Shown one piece after another: positions 13,038 to 33,284 of a DNA stretch of 33,327 nucleotides; positions within the stretch are counted from its first letter, which is position 1, and each line of letters begins with the position of its first letter. The notes under the pieces are model-generated. The model was not told the origin of the DNA. It ran no database searches and saw nothing but the letters and a program-made list of their open reading frames with translations. The position numbers and the translations under genes were made by a program. Source of the DNA: Candidatus Aminicenantota bacterium (GTDB lineage: Bacteria; Acidobacteriota; Aminicenantia; UBA2199). The DNA lies in the NCBI GenBank assembly GCA_027318645.1, contig DAHVOV010000076.1, positions 1-33,327 on the forward strand, read 5' to 3'.

Positions 13038-13989
13038 GATCTGCGGCCGGTTCGCCGGCAAGAGCATCCTGGTGTACGGGGACGTGATCCTCGACCGCTA
13101 CATCTTCGGCCAGGTCGAGCGCATCTCGCCCGAGGCGCCGGTGCCGGTGCTCTCGGTCGAGCTCGAGGAGTCGCGGCTGGGCGGCGCCGGCAACGTGGCG
13201 GCCAACATCGACCGCCTGGGCGCGCGCGGCCTGCTGCTGGGCGTGGCCGGCCGCGACGCCTACGCCGACGAGGTCGCCCGCCTGAAGGGCGAGGGCGACC
13301 GGGTGCTGCGCGACGCCGCCAGCCGCACCATCGTCAAGACGCGCGTCATCGCCCAGCGCCAGCAGGTCGTGCGCATCGACCGCGACGGCCTCATCCGCCT
13401 GGAGGCTGACATGCTGGAGCGGCTCGGCGCCGCCATCGCCGAGGCCAGGGCCGACGGCATCATCGTCTCCGACTACGCCAAGGGCACGGTCAACGCCGCC
13501 GTGATGGCGCTGCTCAAGGAGCGCGCCGCCGCCGCCGGCATCCCCCTCGTCGTCGACCCCAAGCCGTCCCACGCCGCCCTCTACGAGGGGGTGACCGGCA
13601 TGACCCCCAACCTGAAGGAGGCCGCGGAGCTGGCCGGCCGCCCGATCGCCGGCGACGACGGCCTGGCCTGGGCCCTGGCCCGCATCCGCCGCCGCTTCCG
13701 CTCGCGCTTCGCCCTCATCACCCGCGGCAGCCAGGGGATCTCGGCCGCTGCGCAGGGAAGGAAGATGTTCCACCTGCCGGCCTACAGCCGCGAGGTGTTC
13801 GACGTGACCGGCGCCGGCGACACCGTCGTCGCCGTGCTGACCCTGGCCCTGGCCGCCGGCGCCGACCTGCGCGAGGCGGTGGCCCTGGCCAACGCCGCCG
13901 CCTCGGTGGTGGTGGAGAAGGTCGGCACCTCGCAGGTCTCGCGCGAGGAGCTGCTGGAGCGCATGGCCTCCATCCTGCGCCGGCATTGA
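13012..13989 (+). CDS. D-glycero-beta-D-manno-heptose-7-phosphate kinase (RfaE domain I, PfkB fold)
   Basis: 'GDVILDRYIFGQVERISPEAPVPVL...ESRLGGAGNVAANIDRLG', 'VVDPKPSHAALYEGVTGMTPNLKEA', 'FDVTGAGDTVVAVLTLALAAGADLREAVALANAAASVVVEKVGTSQV'; the nucleotidyltransferase domain is absent. Confidence 0.93.
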   Translation: MRKLQRFAEICGRFAGKSILVYGDVILDRYIFGQVERISPEAPVPVLSVELEESRLGGAGNVAANIDRLGARGLLLGVAGRDAYADEVARLKGEGDRVLRDAASRTIVKTRVIAQRQQVVRIDRDGLIRLEADMLERLGAAIAEARADGIIVSDYAKGTVNAAVMALLKERAAAAGIPLVVDPKPSHAALYEGVTGMTPNLKEAAELAGRPIAGDDGLAWALARIRRRFRSRFALITRGSQGISAAAQGRKMFHLPAYSREVFDVTGAGDTVVAVLTLALAAGADLREAVALANAAASVVVEKVGTSQVSREELLERMASILRRH

Positions 13990-15101
13990 ACCGCCTGCAG
14001 CTCCTCAAGGTCCTCGCCCCCGGCTTCCTGCCGCTGCTGGTCTTCATCGCCGCCGACGCCCTGTGGTGGACGACTGTCGGGCTGGCCGTGGCCGTCGCCT
14101 CGGGGATCGTCGAGCTGGGCGTCTCCCGCGTCCGCGAGAAGAGCTGGGACCGCTTCGTGCTTCTCGATACGCTGCTGATCACGGCCATGGGCGGCATCTC
14201 GCTGCTGCTGGCCAACGACATCTTCTTCCGCCTGAAGCCGGCGGTGGTGGAGCTCATCTTCTGCCTGGTCCTCGGCGTCTCGGTCTACACGCCGGCGAAC
14301 GTCATGCTGGCCATGACCCGCCGCTACCTGCGCGGCATGGAGATCACCGCGGAACAGGCGCGGGCCATGACCCGCAGCATGAAGGGGCTTTTTTACCTCT
14401 TCCTGGCGCACACGGCGCTGATCGTCTACGCGGCCTTCGCCATGTCGGCCGCGGCCTGGGGCTTCATCTCCGGCGGCCTGTTCTACATCCTGTTCGCCGC
14501 CTATTTCCTGGTCGAATGGCTGGGCAGCCGCCGCCGTGCCCGGGGCGCCGAGGCGGCCATGGCGCAGTACGCCGGCGAGGAGTGGTTCGACCTGGTCGAC
14601 GCCGAGGGACGGGTGACCGGCCGGGCGCCGCGCAGCGTCTGCCACTCGCGCCCGGGGCTCCTGCACCCGGTTGTGCACCTGCACATCCTCGATGACAAGG
14701 ACCGGCTCTTCCTGCAGAAGCGCTCGCCGGCCAAGGAGATCCAGCCGGACAGATGGGACACCGCCGTCGGCGGCCATGTGCTCAGCGGCGAGACGGTCGA
14801 GCGGGCGCTGGCGAGGGAGACGGCCGAGGAGACCGGGCTGGAGGGGCTGAAGGCGCAGCCGCTGGCGCGCTACGTCTGGCAGAGCGAGGTCGAGTCGGAG
14901 CTGGTCTTCATGTTCGCGGCCCGCAGCCGCCGGGAGCCGCGCGTCGACCCGGCCGAGAGCAGCGAGGGCCGCTTCTGGAAGATCGCCAAGGTGCGCGAGG
15001 CGATCGGCAAGGGTGTCCTCACCCCCAATTTGGAGTTCGAGTTCCCCATCCTGATGCAGCTGGTCTTCGGCGAGAAGAAGAAACAAAACAACGAACTATG
15101 A
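13986..15101 (+). CDS. Integral-membrane domain fused to a NUDIX hydrolase
   Basis: N-terminal about 170 aa polytopic and YciB/septation-protein-A-like by eye; C-terminal 'LFLQKRSPAKEIQPDRWDTAVGGHVLSGETVERALARETAEETGLEG' fits the Nudix box Gx5Ex7REUxEExGU. TTG start overlaps the upstream stop. Confidence 0.85.
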   Translation: MNRLQLLKVLAPGFLPLLVFIAADALWWTTVGLAVAVASGIVELGVSRVREKSWDRFVLLDTLLITAMGGISLLLANDIFFRLKPAVVELIFCLVLGVSVYTPANVMLAMTRRYLRGMEITAEQARAMTRSMKGLFYLFLAHTALIVYAAFAMSAAAWGFISGGLFYILFAAYFLVEWLGSRRRARGAEAAMAQYAGEEWFDLVDAEGRVTGRAPRSVCHSRPGLLHPVVHLHILDDKDRLFLQKRSPAKEIQPDRWDTAVGGHVLSGETVERALARETAEETGLEGLKAQPLARYVWQSEVESELVFMFAARSRREPRVDPAESSEGRFWKIAKVREAIGKGVLTPNLEFEFPILMQLVFGEKKKQNNEL

Positions 15102-27474: not shown

Positions 27475-27538
27475 GTCAGGCCGGTCCGACCTGTCCGACA
27501 GGTCCGACCGGTCCGACCCGTCTGACCGGTCCGACCTC
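27475..27538. repeat. CCGACCTGTCCGACAGGTCCGACCGGT self-complementary tandem repeat
   Basis: 'gtcaggccggtccgacctgtccgacaggtccgaccggtccgacccgtctgaccggtccgacc'. Confidence 0.85.
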
Positions 27539-27883: not shown

Positions 27884-28678
27884 CTATTTTCCCCCGCCCG
27901 TCCTCAGCAGCCGGGAAAGGGAGCGCAGCTTCGCCTGCAGGCGCGCCGCGTTCGCCGGTCCCAGCCGCAGCAGGTGCTTCTGGGCGGCACTGAGCCCCTC
28001 CAGCCCCGGATCGGCGAAGGCGTAGCTCATCATCTTCCTTTCCAGCACGATATCGCCGGCGATCGGCGGCGCCAGCAGCAGGTGCCCGATCGCCTGCTGC
28101 AGCCGCTCGGCGAAGGTGACGTCGGGGTAGCCCAGCTCGCGGAACGCCTTCTCCAGGGTCGGCCGCAGCGTCGCGTACCAGCGGACCCAGGTCGTATCCG
28201 GGACGGCCGCGAAGGCGGCCACCAGCGGGTCGTAGCGCCGAAAGCCCTTCGGGTCGATGACCATCCTCCCGCCTCGCTCCAGCACGGCGAAACGCTCCGC
28301 CGGCGAAAGGAACGGCAGGAGCGGCGCCGGGCTCTCGCCGCGGGCGATGGCGTCCACCGCGGCGACGGCGGTGCGCACGAGGTCTTTCTGCTTCAGCCAG
28401 GCGCGCATCGCCTCCGGCGGCTGCTGGTCCATGACCAGCCGGCGCACGGCGTCGTCGCTCGCGTCCAGGTCGAGATCGAGCGGCGTGACCGGCGCTTCGG
28501 GCCCGGCAACGGCCGGCGCCCGCTCCTCCGCCGCCGGGGCGGGAAGGGACGACGGCTCCGGCCGGGCGGCGGCGCTTTTTTCATTGGCCGGGGCCAGGAA
28601 CAGGAAATAGCCGAGACCGATGATGGCCACGGCGACAACGGCGATGGCGATCCACGTCAGTCGCTGGCTGGACAGCAT
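27884..28678 (-). CDS. Membrane-anchored DUF3014-like protein
   Basis: N-terminal TM 'WIAIAVVAVAIIGLGYFLFLA', Pro/Ala linker; 'VIDPKGFRRYDPLVAAFAAVP...WYATLRPTLEKAFRELGYPDVTFAERLQQAIGHLL' recalls DUF3014. Confidence 0.75.
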   Translation of the reverse strand: MLSSQRLTWIAIAVVAVAIIGLGYFLFLAPANEKSAAARPEPSSLPAPAAEERAPAVAGPEAPVTPLDLDLDASDDAVRRLVMDQQPPEAMRAWLKQKDLVRTAVAAVDAIARGESPAPLLPFLSPAERFAVLERGGRMVIDPKGFRRYDPLVAAFAAVPDTTWVRWYATLRPTLEKAFRELGYPDVTFAERLQQAIGHLLLAPPIAGDIVLERKMMSYAFADPGLEGLSAAQKHLLRLGPANAARLQAKLRSLSRLLRTGGGK

Positions 28679-28719: not shown

Positions 28720-30273
28720 TCAAGAGCCGCCGGCTGTCAAAAGCGGGCGCGGGGCCAGCGCCGCCCAGGCCAGCTCGGCATTGGCGCGGTCGCGGCCGAC
28801 GCTGCGCGCGGCGGCCCGGACCAGCGGGTGATCCCGCCGCAGCCACAGGACGGGGCGCTCCGTTCCGGCGCGCCAGGAGGAGGGGAAGAGTCCGCGGCCG
28901 GCGGCCATGGCCACGCGGACGGCGGGCGGGAGCGGGACGGCGGCGCGCTCCCGCAGCAGGGCCTCCATCTCCCGGCACAGCCGCTCCTCGTCGGGCCGGA
29001 GCGCGGGCGCTTCCTGCAGGCGCCTGTGCGGCAAGCGGGCGAGGCGGCGCACGGCGGCCCGCCGCAGGGCCGCCATGATCCGCCCGGGCAGGCCCCGGCC
29101 GTCGGCCGCCGCCGGAGGCACGCTCAGGGGAACGCCGGCGTCGTTGGCCAGGAAATCGATCTGCCGCGGCGTCAGCAGCAGCGCCTCCTGGAGCGGGTCG
29201 AGGAAACGCCCGGGATCGCTGCCCGCGGGAAGAACGGTCAGCGGGCCGGCCTGCGCCCGGCGGCGCACATCGTCGAGGCTCAGCCGGCGCGGCGAGCCCA
29301 GCAGCCGGAACGGGGCGAAGGTGGAGGACAGGCGCGGGTCGTTGGCGGCGCGGATGCGGCGGAAGACCAGCTCCTCGACCCGCTCCTGCCAGGGGGGCGG
29401 GAAGGAGGGATAGCGTTCGCACAGCCAGGCGTACAGCCCGGCGGCGGCGTCGACCAGGGCGGTGAACTCGGCCGCGGTCGCCGGCACGCGGGATTCCAGC
29501 GCGGCGTCGAAGACGAGCCCGGCGCAGGAGGCGCTGGTGAACAGCTGCCAGGGGATCTGGCGGTCGAGCAGCCAGATACGGCAGATCTCGCCGCGCGCCG
29601 GCACCGACACCGCGCTGCGCGGAGCGCCGGCCGTCGGCCCCGGCTCCAGCGCCTGGCGCACCAGCGCCCGCCGCAGGATCGGCTTCTTCTCGATCGCCCG
29701 GCCGTTGAGCGAGATGGCGGCGTCGACCCCGGCGCACAGCTCGGCCAGGAGCCTCCTTTCCGCGTCGGCGTCGCCATGGCGCCGGCGGACGACGATGCGC
29801 GTGCCCGGCCGCGGCCCGGCCAAGGGGACGAGGCGCAGCGTGCCACCGGCGAGGCGCAGGCCCGGCCGCGAGCCCGCGCCGGGGCTGGCGATGAGGATGT
29901 CCAGCGCCCCGGGCAGCAGGGCGGCCAGCGGGCCGATGCCGGGCCGGGCCGACTCGTGCAGGGCGGCGATGGCCTGCTCGCGCTCCAGGGCGGGCCGGCT
30001 TCCGTCGAGGGCGCAGCCGAGCGCGCGCCACTCCGCCTCGGCGATCGCCGCGCCGTCGTCCGCAACCTCCAGGAGGCGGCGGCGGACCTCCACCGCGACC
30101 GTGCCGGCGCCGCGGCCCAGGGCGGCGCGCACCAGCTCGACGGGAAGCTGGGCCGGCGTGGGGAACATGCTGGCGGCGAGCTTGCGCAGGTGGGCGTCGG
30201 CGTCGACGGAGAACAGGCCGGAAAGGCTCGCCGCGCCGGGGGCGGCGTTCGCACCCGGAAGCTGCTCACTCAT
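28720..30273 (-). CDS. Hypothetical protein with degenerate Hsp90/GHKL-like N-terminal region
   Basis: MSEQLPG...; 'LPVELVRAALGRGAGTVAVEVRRRLLEVADDGAAI' aligns with the ELxxNxxDAGA...DxGxG pattern but lacks the catalytic Asn and G1 Gly. The 5' end overlaps the upstream gene by 8 bp. Confidence 0.7.
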   Translation of the reverse strand: MSEQLPGANAAPGAASLSGLFSVDADAHLRKLAASMFPTPAQLPVELVRAALGRGAGTVAVEVRRRLLEVADDGAAIAEAEWRALGCALDGSRPALEREQAIAALHESARPGIGPLAALLPGALDILIASPGAGSRPGLRLAGGTLRLVPLAGPRPGTRIVVRRRHGDADAERRLLAELCAGVDAAISLNGRAIEKKPILRRALVRQALEPGPTAGAPRSAVSVPARGEICRIWLLDRQIPWQLFTSASCAGLVFDAALESRVPATAAEFTALVDAAAGLYAWLCERYPSFPPPWQERVEELVFRRIRAANDPRLSSTFAPFRLLGSPRRLSLDDVRRRAQAGPLTVLPAGSDPGRFLDPLQEALLLTPRQIDFLANDAGVPLSVPPAAADGRGLPGRIMAALRRAAVRRLARLPHRRLQEAPALRPDEERLCREMEALLRERAAVPLPPAVRVAMAAGRGLFPSSWRAGTERPVLWLRRDHPLVRAAARSVGRDRANAELAWAALAPRPLLTAGGS

Positions 30274-33076
30274 GACCTTCCTCCAGGAGGCGGCGCGCCG
30301 CGCGGCGCAGCAGGGACGGCAGGGAGCCCTGGGGCAGCGCTCCCTCCTCGCCCAGCAGGCGCAGGAAGCGCAGGACCGCCAGGCCGGGGTTGTCGCGAAA
30401 CAGGACCGTGGCGTCAAGAAATCCCTGAGCCCGGGGCGAGACGGCGATGAAGCGCCTGGGGAAATGGAAGGGGGGATTCAGCGGCGCAACGGGCAGGTCG
30501 ACGGCGAGGATCCCCGGCTCCGGCGTTCCCGCCGCCAGGAGGCAGGGAGCGGGCCGGGTGCGCCGCCTGCCGGCGAACCACGGCCGCGCTCCCGTCCTGC
30601 CCCCGGCCGCCTGGGGAACGAGAAAGGCGTTGACCGCGGCCAGCAGCCCGTCCTGTCCCGGCGGTTTCGGCCGCAGGCGGCACAGCATGTCGGCGTCGAT
30701 CGCCTCCTCCAGGACGGCATGCAGCGGGGCGTACGCGGGCTGGCTCAGGTCCAGCACGGCCGCGCCCGCGGCGGCCAGGGAGAGCGCCAGGGGGTTGCGG
30801 TTGGCCGTGACGAGGAGCCGCTGCCGGCGCGAGAGGGACTCCGCCCGCAGGAGCGAGATCCGCCCGCCGTTCACCAGCGGCAGCAGGGGATGGCGGCGTA
30901 GGGGGTTGTCGGCGCCCCACGCGTCGGGGCGCAGCAGCGACTGGCGCGCGATCTGCAGCAGCGGCCCGCGGATCTCGTCGGCGGCGGCCGCGACGGGCTC
31001 GGCGCGGTCGCGGCCGGCCAGCGCGAGCCGGACGGCGAAGGAAACGAGCGCAACCGTCCCCAGCACGGCCAGCAGGAGCGGCAGGGCTCGGTTCCGCTTC
31101 GGGAGCGTGGACGCCGGGCCCGGGGCCGGCGCGGGCGCCGCAGCAGCGGCCGTTGCGGCCGGGAAGGGAACCCCGGACCGTGACAGCGGCGTGGCGTCGC
31201 TCACCTGCCAGTCGCCGTCGAGATACTCGGCCCAGGCGTGCAGGCGGGGGAGGGCAGCGCCGTTGTCGCCGACCAGGCCGATGACCAGGCGGGCGGGGAC
31301 GCCCAGGCGCCGGAGCAGCAGCACCTGGAAGCCGTTGATGACATCGCAGTCGCCGGCGCCGATGCGCAGCACGCGCTCGAGCCAGCGGCCGCGGCCGGCC
31401 TCGCTGCGGAAGCGCCTGGCGGTCTCCGCGGCGGCGGAGTAGGCCAGACGGTCGCGCGTCAGCGCCAGGGCCAGCGCCGCGCGTTGGCCGGCGCCAACGG
31501 GCCGGTTCGCGGCGATCTCCGCCTCCAGGTCCGCGGGAAGGGCGAATCCGGACGGCAGGGAGAGGAACAGGCCGGCATCTTCCCTGGGGGGAGCGTCGGC
31601 GCCAGGGGCGGGGCAGGCGGCATACGCGACCATGCCCCCGGCGGGGAGGCGGGCCATGGCCTCGCCCTGGGCGGTGGCGCTCACCTCGGCAACGGCCCGG
31701 CCGTCGAGCGCCAGGGTGCCGCGCACGAGGGACCATCCCGGGGGCAGCGGCAGGATTGCGTTCCCTGCCCCGGCCTCGAGGCGCAGGTGCAGGCGTTTCT
31801 CCTCCGTGCAGGGCGGGGCAAAGGCCAGAGGCCGCAGGGCGCGGCGCGGGCCGCGGATGAATCCCCGCTCCGCGTCATAGAGGTCGGCCGTGAACAGGCG
31901 CAGCAGCAGGGGGCGCGGCGGCGAATAGGCCAGGGGCGGCACGCCCGGAACGGCGTCGGCGGCCACTGCCGCGCCGGGATAGGAGCGCGGCGCGTCGTCC
32001 AGGCTGAACCAGTCGGGAGCGGCGGCGGCCGCCCCCGGCCGCAGCACCAGGAGCTCCAGCGCCAGCAGCGCCAGGGCGACGAGCGGCAGCCAGAGCCAGC
32101 CCGGGCGGAGCAGGACGCCTGCGACGGCGCGCAGGCGGTCGAGCAGCCGGCCCGGCCAGCGCCGGGGGAAGACCTTCTGCAGCGAGATCTCGAGCAGGCG
32201 CCGCAGCGCTGCCTCCGCCCGGCGGCGCACGAGCGCCAGGGCGCGGTTCTCCACGGCCAGGTCCCGGGAGAAGGTCACGTCGAGGTGGTTGCCGTTGAGC
32301 AGGTACACCGGCGCCAGCCCCCCGCCCACGTCGGTGCGGCCGGCGGCGTCGACGTTCAGCACCGACATCTGGTCCAGGGCCGCGCCGCGCCATACCGGCA
32401 GGCCGCGGGCGTACAGGCTCACCTCCGGGTTTTCCGCCAGCCCCACCGCCCCCTCGACCGGGCCGCTGCGGAAGCGCAGGCTGAGCGGCCCGGGAAGCGC
32501 CATGGGCTCGGTCAGCTCGCGGCCGCCGTAGACCAGGGACAGCGGCGAGCCGCGGCGGTCGTTGCGCCGGAGATAGCGGCAGTAGGCGCGCAGGCCTTCC
32601 CCGACCTGGCGCGCGAACTCCTCCGGCGAGGCGCTGCGCGCGGGGCGGACGAGGGTGACCGTCGTGCCGGGAGCGTTGCGCCGGCAGTCGGACGCGCGGG
32701 CGGCGAGCCCGGCGTCGAGCTCGACGGCCCAGGCCTCGCCGCCGCTTCGCGACTCGATGCGGATGAGGGACGGCCCGAAGCGCAGCACGGTCCAGAAGCC
32801 GACGCCGTAGCGGCCGGCGGCGGCGGGATCGCCGCCCTTGTCCGAGGCATGAAGGCGGAAGAGGAAGCGCCGGGCGTGGGCCAGGGTCATGCCCCGGCCG
32901 TCGTCGGCGAAGACGATCGTCTCGCTCCCGCCGGAGGCGGCCTGTGCCTCAACGCGGATGGCCCGGGCGCCGGCGTCGCGGCTGTTCTGCGCCAGCTCGC
33001 GCAGGAAGTACCAGGGGTCGTCTCCGTACGCCCGCGTGACCGCCTCGGCCAGGCCGCGGAATTCGCTTCCCTGCAT
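30266..33076 (-). CDS. Hsp90/GHKL-type ATPase domain fused through a TM helix to a transglutaminase-like domain
   Basis: 'FLRELAQNSRDAGARAIRV' (N box), 'FADDGRGM' (G1), 'GRYGVGFWTVLRFG' (G2); TM 'WLWLPLVALALLALELLVL'; transglutaminase-like 'GAGDCDVINGFQVLLLRRLGVPARLVIGLVGDNG...LHAWAEYLDGDWQVSDATP' (Cys-His-Asp); second TM 'ALPLLLAVLGTVALVSFAVRLAL'. Confidence 0.88.
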   Translation of the reverse strand: MQGSEFRGLAEAVTRAYGDDPWYFLRELAQNSRDAGARAIRVEAQAASGGSETIVFADDGRGMTLAHARRFLFRLHASDKGGDPAAAGRYGVGFWTVLRFGPSLIRIESRSGGEAWAVELDAGLAARASDCRRNAPGTTVTLVRPARSASPEEFARQVGEGLRAYCRYLRRNDRRGSPLSLVYGGRELTEPMALPGPLSLRFRSGPVEGAVGLAENPEVSLYARGLPVWRGAALDQMSVLNVDAAGRTDVGGGLAPVYLLNGNHLDVTFSRDLAVENRALALVRRRAEAALRRLLEISLQKVFPRRWPGRLLDRLRAVAGVLLRPGWLWLPLVALALLALELLVLRPGAAAAAPDWFSLDDAPRSYPGAAVAADAVPGVPPLAYSPPRPLLLRLFTADLYDAERGFIRGPRRALRPLAFAPPCTEEKRLHLRLEAGAGNAILPLPPGWSLVRGTLALDGRAVAEVSATAQGEAMARLPAGGMVAYAACPAPGADAPPREDAGLFLSLPSGFALPADLEAEIAANRPVGAGQRAALALALTRDRLAYSAAAETARRFRSEAGRGRWLERVLRIGAGDCDVINGFQVLLLRRLGVPARLVIGLVGDNGAALPRLHAWAEYLDGDWQVSDATPLSRSGVPFPAATAAAAAPAPAPGPASTLPKRNRALPLLLAVLGTVALVSFAVRLALAGRDRAEPVAAAADEIRGPLLQIARQSLLRPDAWGADNPLRRHPLLPLVNGGRISLLRAESLSRRQRLLVTANRNPLALSLAAAGAAVLDLSQPAYAPLHAVLEEAIDADMLCRLRPKPPGQDGLLAAVNAFLVPQAAGGRTGARPWFAGRRRTRPAPCLLAAGTPEPGILAVDLPVAPLNPPFHFPRRFIAVSPRAQGFLDATVLFRDNPGLAVLRFLRLLGEEGALPQGSLPSLLRRAARRLLEEGHE

Positions 33077-33089
33077 GGCCCCGGGGGTT

Positions 33090-33284
33090 TCAGTTCATCC
33101 GGCGGACGCGCACCTCGATGGCGGGATCGCCGCCGAGCAGCTCGACCAGGCGCCGCGGGTCGCTGGCCGAATAGTGGTAGGGATAGAGGATGCGCGGGCG
33201 GAACGAGCGGGCGGCGCGGGCCGTCATCTCCGGCGTCATGGTGTAGGGCAGGTTCATCGGCAGGAAGGCGACGTAGCGTTGCAT
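33090..33284 (-). pseudogene. C-terminal fragment of an MBL-fold (UlaG-like) metallo-hydrolase; upstream frame has TAG stops within the window
   Basis: 'VAFLPMNLPYTMTPEMTARAARSFRPRILYPYHYSASDPRRLVELLGGDPAIEVRVRRMN' resembles the C-terminus of UlaG-like hydrolases; in-frame TAG at 33294-33296. The window ends at 33327. Confidence 0.55.

Follow-up and report, generated by a model that had tools for sequence, protein, structure and literature searches.

What would a bacterium gain from joining an Hsp90-like ATPase to a transglutaminase-like enzyme across a membrane in one protein chain? This question is raised by a gene that we call P1, located at 30266-33076 on the minus strand of the window, which is an entire contig (C51, 33,327 bp) from the 2.8 Mb draft genome of an Aminicenantes-type acidobacterium. 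A preliminary description made from the sequence alone had reported a 936-aa open reading frame at this position, without its strand; we recovered it with an ATG start. The Hsp90-like GHKL motifs it had named are found as quoted (ELAQNSRDAG, residues 27-36; DDGRGM, 58-63; GRYGVGF, 88-94), as is the Cys/His/Asp signature of a transglutaminase-like domain (GDCDVINGF from residue 575, LHAWAEYLDGDW from 612 and SDATP from 626). Here, we examine whether the two parts belong together, what accompanies them, and what the combination may do.

Domain organization of P1

The features of P1, all on the minus strand, are as follows.

30266..33076, P1 whole gene, 936 aa: Hsp90-like ATPase, TM, transglutaminase-like domain, TM, Hsp90-frame C-terminal domain
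32567..33076, residues 1-170: GHKL (Bergerat) ATP-binding domain, Hsp90-like (HATPase_c_3, Hsp90 N-domain profile, AlphaFold with Foldseek)
32969..32998, N-box ELAQNSRDAG (27-36): E27 and N31 in 68/68 homologues
32888..32905, G1 box DDGRGM (58-63): D58, G60 and G62 in 68/68
32792..32815, G2 box GRYGVGFW (88-95): glycines, F94 and W95 in 68/68
32162..32566, residues 171-305: Hsp90 middle-domain-like (AlphaFold secondary structure, second HMM segment of GRP94, Foldseek to TRAP1/HtpG)
32264..32266, Arg271 of the LDVTFSRD segment: aligns with the catalytic-loop arginine of Hsp90 ('LNxSRE'), 68/68
32042..32128, TM1: hydrophobic ~317-345, model helix 329-344
31607..31939, residues 380-490: predicted beta-rich extracytoplasmic domain preceding the transglutaminase core (AlphaFold model)
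31187..31441, residues 546-630: transglutaminase core (Pfam Transglut_core; TgpA 6g49, E 3e-6)
31346..31348, Cys577: position of the catalytic nucleophile, first residue of helix 577-590, 68/68
31238..31240, His613: triad, 68/68
31196..31198, Asp627: triad, 68/68
31016..31087, TM2: helix 664-687
30269..31003, residues 692-936: C-terminal frame domain (homology to the C-terminal half of soluble Hsp90-like proteins and to P2)

Pfam placed HATPase_c_3 on residues 25-124 (E 6.8e-12, 46 bits against a cut-off of 25) and Transglut_core (PF01841) on residues 561-627 (E 7.4e-9, 36.3 bits against a cut-off of 23), and both models matched all 15 of 15 divergent P1 members. A single-sequence phmmer search of P1 against the PDB returned no match, and matches came only with a profile, which aligned to Hsp90 N-domains (E 2.6e-9). 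Among NCBIfam models, the ATPase is nearest to sacsin/Hsp90-type domains (NF047352, E 1.5e-11, slightly under its cut-off), and Pfam SACS matched 11 of the 15 divergent members. Further along the chain, R271 lies in an LxVxxSR motif that the profile alignment sets against the LPLNVSRE segment of GRP94, and by this alignment it occupies the position of the Hsp90 middle-domain catalytic-loop arginine. The same arginine of Hsp90 has also been located in sacsin, where it is single and downstream (PMC9880540). By its N, G1 and G2 boxes and R271, P1 is a GHKL/Hsp90-like ATPase that is predicted to be active. The Hsp90-type arginine and the lack of a HisKA match in P1 agree with the earlier view of the ATPase as Hsp90-like and not histidine-kinase-like; with the ATPase at the N-terminus as well, we rejected a sensor histidine kinase. 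P1 also falls far from true Hsp90/HtpG proteins, as its best equivalog model (NF010683) scored 27.5 bits against a cut-off of 455 and the chain is interrupted by the membrane cassette.

The AlphaFold model of P1 has a mean pLDDT of 86.6 and a pTM of 0.65, so its domains are credible and their relative arrangement is not reliable. Its best Foldseek matches were HtpG and TRAP1 chains (350-390 columns, E about 1e-12). The top 50 matches of the whole protein were Hsp90 chains only, and the transglutaminase fold claimed for the central region is instead supported by the Pfam score, a profile match to the TgpA structure 6g49 (E 3e-6) and the positions of the triad residues in the AlphaFold model. 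There, the triad has the usual transglutaminase arrangement, with Cys577 at the start of helix 577-590, His613 within strand 607-620 and Asp627 after strand 622-626. With its PF01841 score and a triad present in 68/68 homologues, P1 belongs to the transglutaminase-like superfamily. Membership of the TgpA family itself was rejected, as P1 has no DUF3488 match and two TM segments.

Two TM segments bracket the transglutaminase region in 64 of the 68 homologues, as had been claimed for the single sequence, and TM1 of the window protein is only moderately hydrophobic. Positively charged residues per 20 aa average 4.75 before TM1 and 2.0 after it, then 2.55 before TM2 and 4.95 after it. This bias predicts that the transglutaminase domain is outside and both Hsp90-like halves are inside, which supports the topology first proposed.

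Distribution and conservation of P1

Scanning genome contigs with the single P1 sequence gave no matches; with a profile, named genomes yielded 161 relatives, and 80 of these were retained. These come from Candidatus Aminicenantes, from Holophagae, Thermoanaerobaculales and Vicinamibacteria (Acidobacteriota), and from Myxococcota including Nannocystis exedens DSM 71 and N. poenicansa (complete genome), together with a few MAGs carrying other taxonomic labels. Full-length relatives occur in 17 of 396 Acidobacteriota genomes, spread over four family-level groups at 27-61% identity and separated by a wide gap from the next, partial matches. The full membrane module is present in about 4 of 189 Myxococcota genomes.

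The conservation alignment consists of 68 full-length proteins with a median pairwise identity of 28% after dereplication. Invariant in all 68 are E27, N31, R33, D34, D58, G60, G62, G88, G91, G93, F94 and W95 of the ATP domain, and likewise R271, G575, D576, C577, D578, H613 and D627. Twelve catalytic positions invariant at such identity argue that the motifs are not due to chance. Median pairwise identity is 0.42 in the ATP domain and 0.44 in the transglutaminase core, compared to 0.16-0.33 in other regions of P1. The invariance of the ATP site, Arg271 and the Cys-His-Asp triad suggests that both active sites, judged intact from their residues, are kept by selection in the same chain. A chance fusion or an assembly artefact with no joint function had the draft state of the genome in its favour and nothing further; it is refuted by 68 homologues in two phyla, cultivated Nannocystis included, that share the architecture with both sites invariant.

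A degenerate Hsp90-like partner gene

Directly following P1 on the same strand is a second gene, P2.

28720..30273, minus strand: P2, degenerate Hsp90-like partner, 517 aa, translationally coupled to P1
30266..30273, minus strand: overlap of P1 stop and P2 start, 8 bp

The preliminary description had suggested examining neighbourhood conservation. A P1 gene was called at 72 loci, nine of which stop at a contig edge; at 62 of the 63 loci with room, P2 comes immediately after P1 in the same orientation, and the two genes mostly overlap by 4-8 bp. At the one remaining locus (L065), a 78-aa open reading frame lies past a 415 bp gap, possibly owing to an assembly error or a true loss of P2. Among the 396 Acidobacteriota genomes, full-length P2 occurs in exactly the same 17 as full-length P1 and in none else.

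The P2 protein of the window has no Pfam or NCBIfam match, and HATPase_c_3 matches 8 of 59 P2 members on their own. Profile comparison of P2 with P1 by hhalign gave a probability of 98.7% (E 1.9e-16), and the P2 model (pLDDT 88.4) matched full-length TRAP1/Hsp90 in Foldseek (TRAP1, E 3.4e-17). By these profile and model comparisons, P2 is a predicted GHKL-fold, Hsp90-like paralogue of P1. Its ATP site is wrecked: the N-box Asn is present in 0/59 members, the G1 Asp (D72) in 33/59 and the second G1 Gly (G76) in 18/59. Because of this lost Asn and these eroded G1 residues, we read P2 as a predicted pseudo-ATPase. Despite the lost ATP site, all 59 members keep Asp24, which precedes the GHKL domain, and 57 of 59 keep Arg298; both are candidate partner contacts. 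Contact between P1 and P2 is suggested by linkage and paralogy; their divergence is correlated (r 0.937), as shared descent alone would predict.

Soluble Hsp90-like pairs and the origin of the membrane cassette

The preliminary description had left the part of P1 at about 690-936 undefined. In Nannocystis and Paraliomyxa, we found soluble proteins of 522-575 aa in which the same ATP domain runs straight on into a homologue of P1 690-936. The C-terminal region of P1 aligned to the C-terminal half of these soluble proteins (hhalign 97.6%, E 3.1e-12), and the C-terminal part of P2 is related too (95.0%, E 4e-8). The homology between the P1 and P2 C-terminal parts was undetected with 17 sequences (probability 3%) and emerged only with larger alignments, and the C-terminal profile had chance-level matches only against the PDB. 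The domains first described for P1 thus stand, and the Hsp90-like C-terminal region and the P2 partner gene, both missed then, complete the architecture. Homology to the soluble proteins places the TM-transglutaminase-TM cassette inside an Hsp90-like frame. Judged by sequence homology, P1 is such a frame with an insert of ~380 residues (TM, beta domain, transglutaminase, TM), and our inference is an insertion into P1, not a loss in the soluble forms.

Soluble Hsp90-like proteins of this kind occur in 37 of 189 Myxococcota genomes, with up to seven copies, and are more widespread there than the membrane module. At 15 of 18 loci examined, a gene of 950-1800 aa whose N-terminal GHKL part is degenerate comes after the soluble gene, and the two usually overlap by an ATGA. 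The P1-P2 module is therefore one branch of a wider class of active/degenerate Hsp90-like pairs. The large partners at several Myxococcota loci (L133-L138, L164-L183) carry repeated domains of the C-terminal type, and these pairs have no full-length match in NCBIfam or PADLOC.

Proposed mechanism

The reading we prefer, with a probability of roughly 0.5, is that P1 and P2 together make up an Hsp90-like machine, encoded by two genes and spanning the membrane, in which an ATP cycle gates an outer transglutaminase-like site. P1 would pair with P2 via Hsp90-style N-domain contacts, and ATP binding and hydrolysis by P1 would close and open the cytoplasmic clamp. As both TM helices are spliced directly into the clamp, its movement would be carried through the membrane, where it would open, close or present the periplasmic Cys577-His613-Asp627 site. 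The outer enzyme would then cleave, deamidate or crosslink an envelope substrate. A fuller version, in which an asymmetric clamp with one active and one dead Hsp90-like subunit drives the outer cysteine enzyme by ATP, as a branch of a wider paired class in Acidobacteriota and Myxococcota, is put forward more tentatively. ATP-driven conformational signalling across the membrane, which the preliminary description had suggested for P1, remains the best inference, and the direction of coupling could be reversed.

Such a reversal defines an outside-in sensor, in which an envelope ligand is bound or processed by the periplasmic domain, whose occupancy then switches the cytoplasmic ATPase; the ATPase in turn relays the signal to P2 or another client. 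This would use the same topology and coupling, and fits a soluble P2 as the sole conserved partner. We consider it unlikely, as the triad is intact in 68/68 homologues, which argues for outer catalysis beyond mere binding, and no regulator or effector gene is linked to the pair.

Genomic neighbourhood of the pair

The genes on either side of the pair in the window are kept in close relatives only, where the neighbours are ordinary and syntenic.

27884..28678, minus strand: DUF3014 membrane protein
33090..33284, minus strand: 3' part of an upstream gene, truncated by the contig end

A relative of the truncated upstream gene (L038:7074-7805) encodes a metallo-beta-lactamase-fold protein. Outside close relatives, no third gene is conserved beside P1-P2 at the loci examined, and no substrate gene is linked. 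In one Acidobacteriota family (L046:1924-9293, L047, L052), the pair lies between genes for a putative neutral zinc metallopeptidase (PF04298) and a Peptidase_C69.

This peptidase setting, together with the Hsp90-like folds of both P1 and P2, would suit a machine for envelope-protein maturation, in which clients that end up in the membrane or are secreted are first handled by cytoplasmic P1/P2 as an Hsp90-type chaperone and, once exported, are trimmed or crosslinked by the outer domain. The peptidases are neighbours in that single family, however, and genes for chaperones or secretion do not accompany the pair, so that this explanation appears slightly less probable again than a sensor. A role in anti-phage or stress defence, with the GHKL ATPase sensing infection and the outer or membrane part acting on the envelope, is quite improbable. 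The distribution is patchy in both phyla and the ATPase domain alone resembles the TmtA ATPases of PADLOC (E 4e-10), but only 89 residues match of a 1486-position model, covering the generic ATP site only; P2 has no PADLOC match, no defence genes are nearby, and the neighbours in close relatives are the ordinary ones described above.

Elsewhere in the window, three further features were observed.

13986-15101, plus strand: IspA (intracellular septation protein A) membrane domain fused to NUDIX, 371 aa
19221-20654, plus strand: protein-kinase-like protein, with a Pfam Pkinase match mainly to the C-lobe (profile 121-253), then a hydrophobic segment and a tail that is charged and coiled-coil-like; it may be a pseudokinase
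27481-27536: 9 bp tandem repeat of about 6 copies, CCGGTCCGA, between an Fe-S protein gene and a cold-shock-like gene

Comparison with known systems

Searching open-licence full texts for a GHKL/Hsp90-like ATPase with a transglutaminase yielded nothing relevant, in line with the first impression that this is not a standard named family; an earlier description may exist elsewhere. The passages of a paper on HEPN domains name GHKL and transglutaminase fusions each, never together. To our knowledge, an Hsp90-type ATPase operates as a dimer encoded by a single gene and stays in a single compartment, and we know of no other system of the P1/P2 plan. On these grounds, and since P1 as a whole chain falls outside Hsp90, we consider P1/P2 new as a system; its domains are known. 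A stricter view could regard it as a variant among Hsp90-like proteins.

With Hsp90, HtpG and TRAP1, the pair shares a GHKL N-domain, a middle segment with the catalytic-loop arginine and, by Foldseek, the overall frame of P1 and P2. It differs from them in the TM-transglutaminase-TM cassette of P1, in the missing ATP-site Asn of P2, in being made by two different genes in place of one homodimer gene, and in a P1 C-terminal domain that matches no solved structure by sequence. Sacsin-type proteins (NF047352, Pfam SACS) provide the closest models to the P1 ATP domain and share the single downstream arginine, whereas P1 is membrane-embedded with a transglutaminase core, and no sacsin repeats, DnaJ or HEPN were found in it. 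TgpA of Pseudomonas (6g49) resembles P1 in its membrane-anchored extracytoplasmic transglutaminase core, to which P1 has a profile match. Its chain includes DUF3488 and crosses the membrane with six TM helices, and its periplasmic domain has transglutaminase activity in vitro (PMC3507681). TgpA lacks an ATPase, and in P1 there are only two TMs, set into an Hsp90-like frame.

The nearest functional analogy is LapD-LapG, where a transglutaminase-like cysteine protease in the periplasm is controlled from the cytoplasm (PMC3032545, PMC4359373). The logic would be alike and the parts are not, as LapD-LapG consists of a c-di-GMP receptor and a separate protease, with no ATPase and no cytoplasmic domain in common with P1. 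If the coupling proposed for P1/P2 is real, it would provide a direct ATP-driven path from the cytoplasm to covalent modification outside. It would also represent a natural, obligate pair of active and inactive Hsp90-like proteins. Asymmetry in the Hsp90 cycle is debated, and here an evolved asymmetry could be tested, now that the parts are available in cultivated Nannocystis.

The closest relatives of the arrangement are the soluble Myxococcota pairs, which combine an active-motif GHKL domain and the same C-terminal domain with a following degenerate GHKL gene. They differ from P1/P2 in having no TM and no transglutaminase, and in a partner of 950-1800 aa instead of about 500. Their frequency and copy number in Myxococcota suggest a larger unexplored family, to which P1 and P2 would add a branch that reaches across the membrane.
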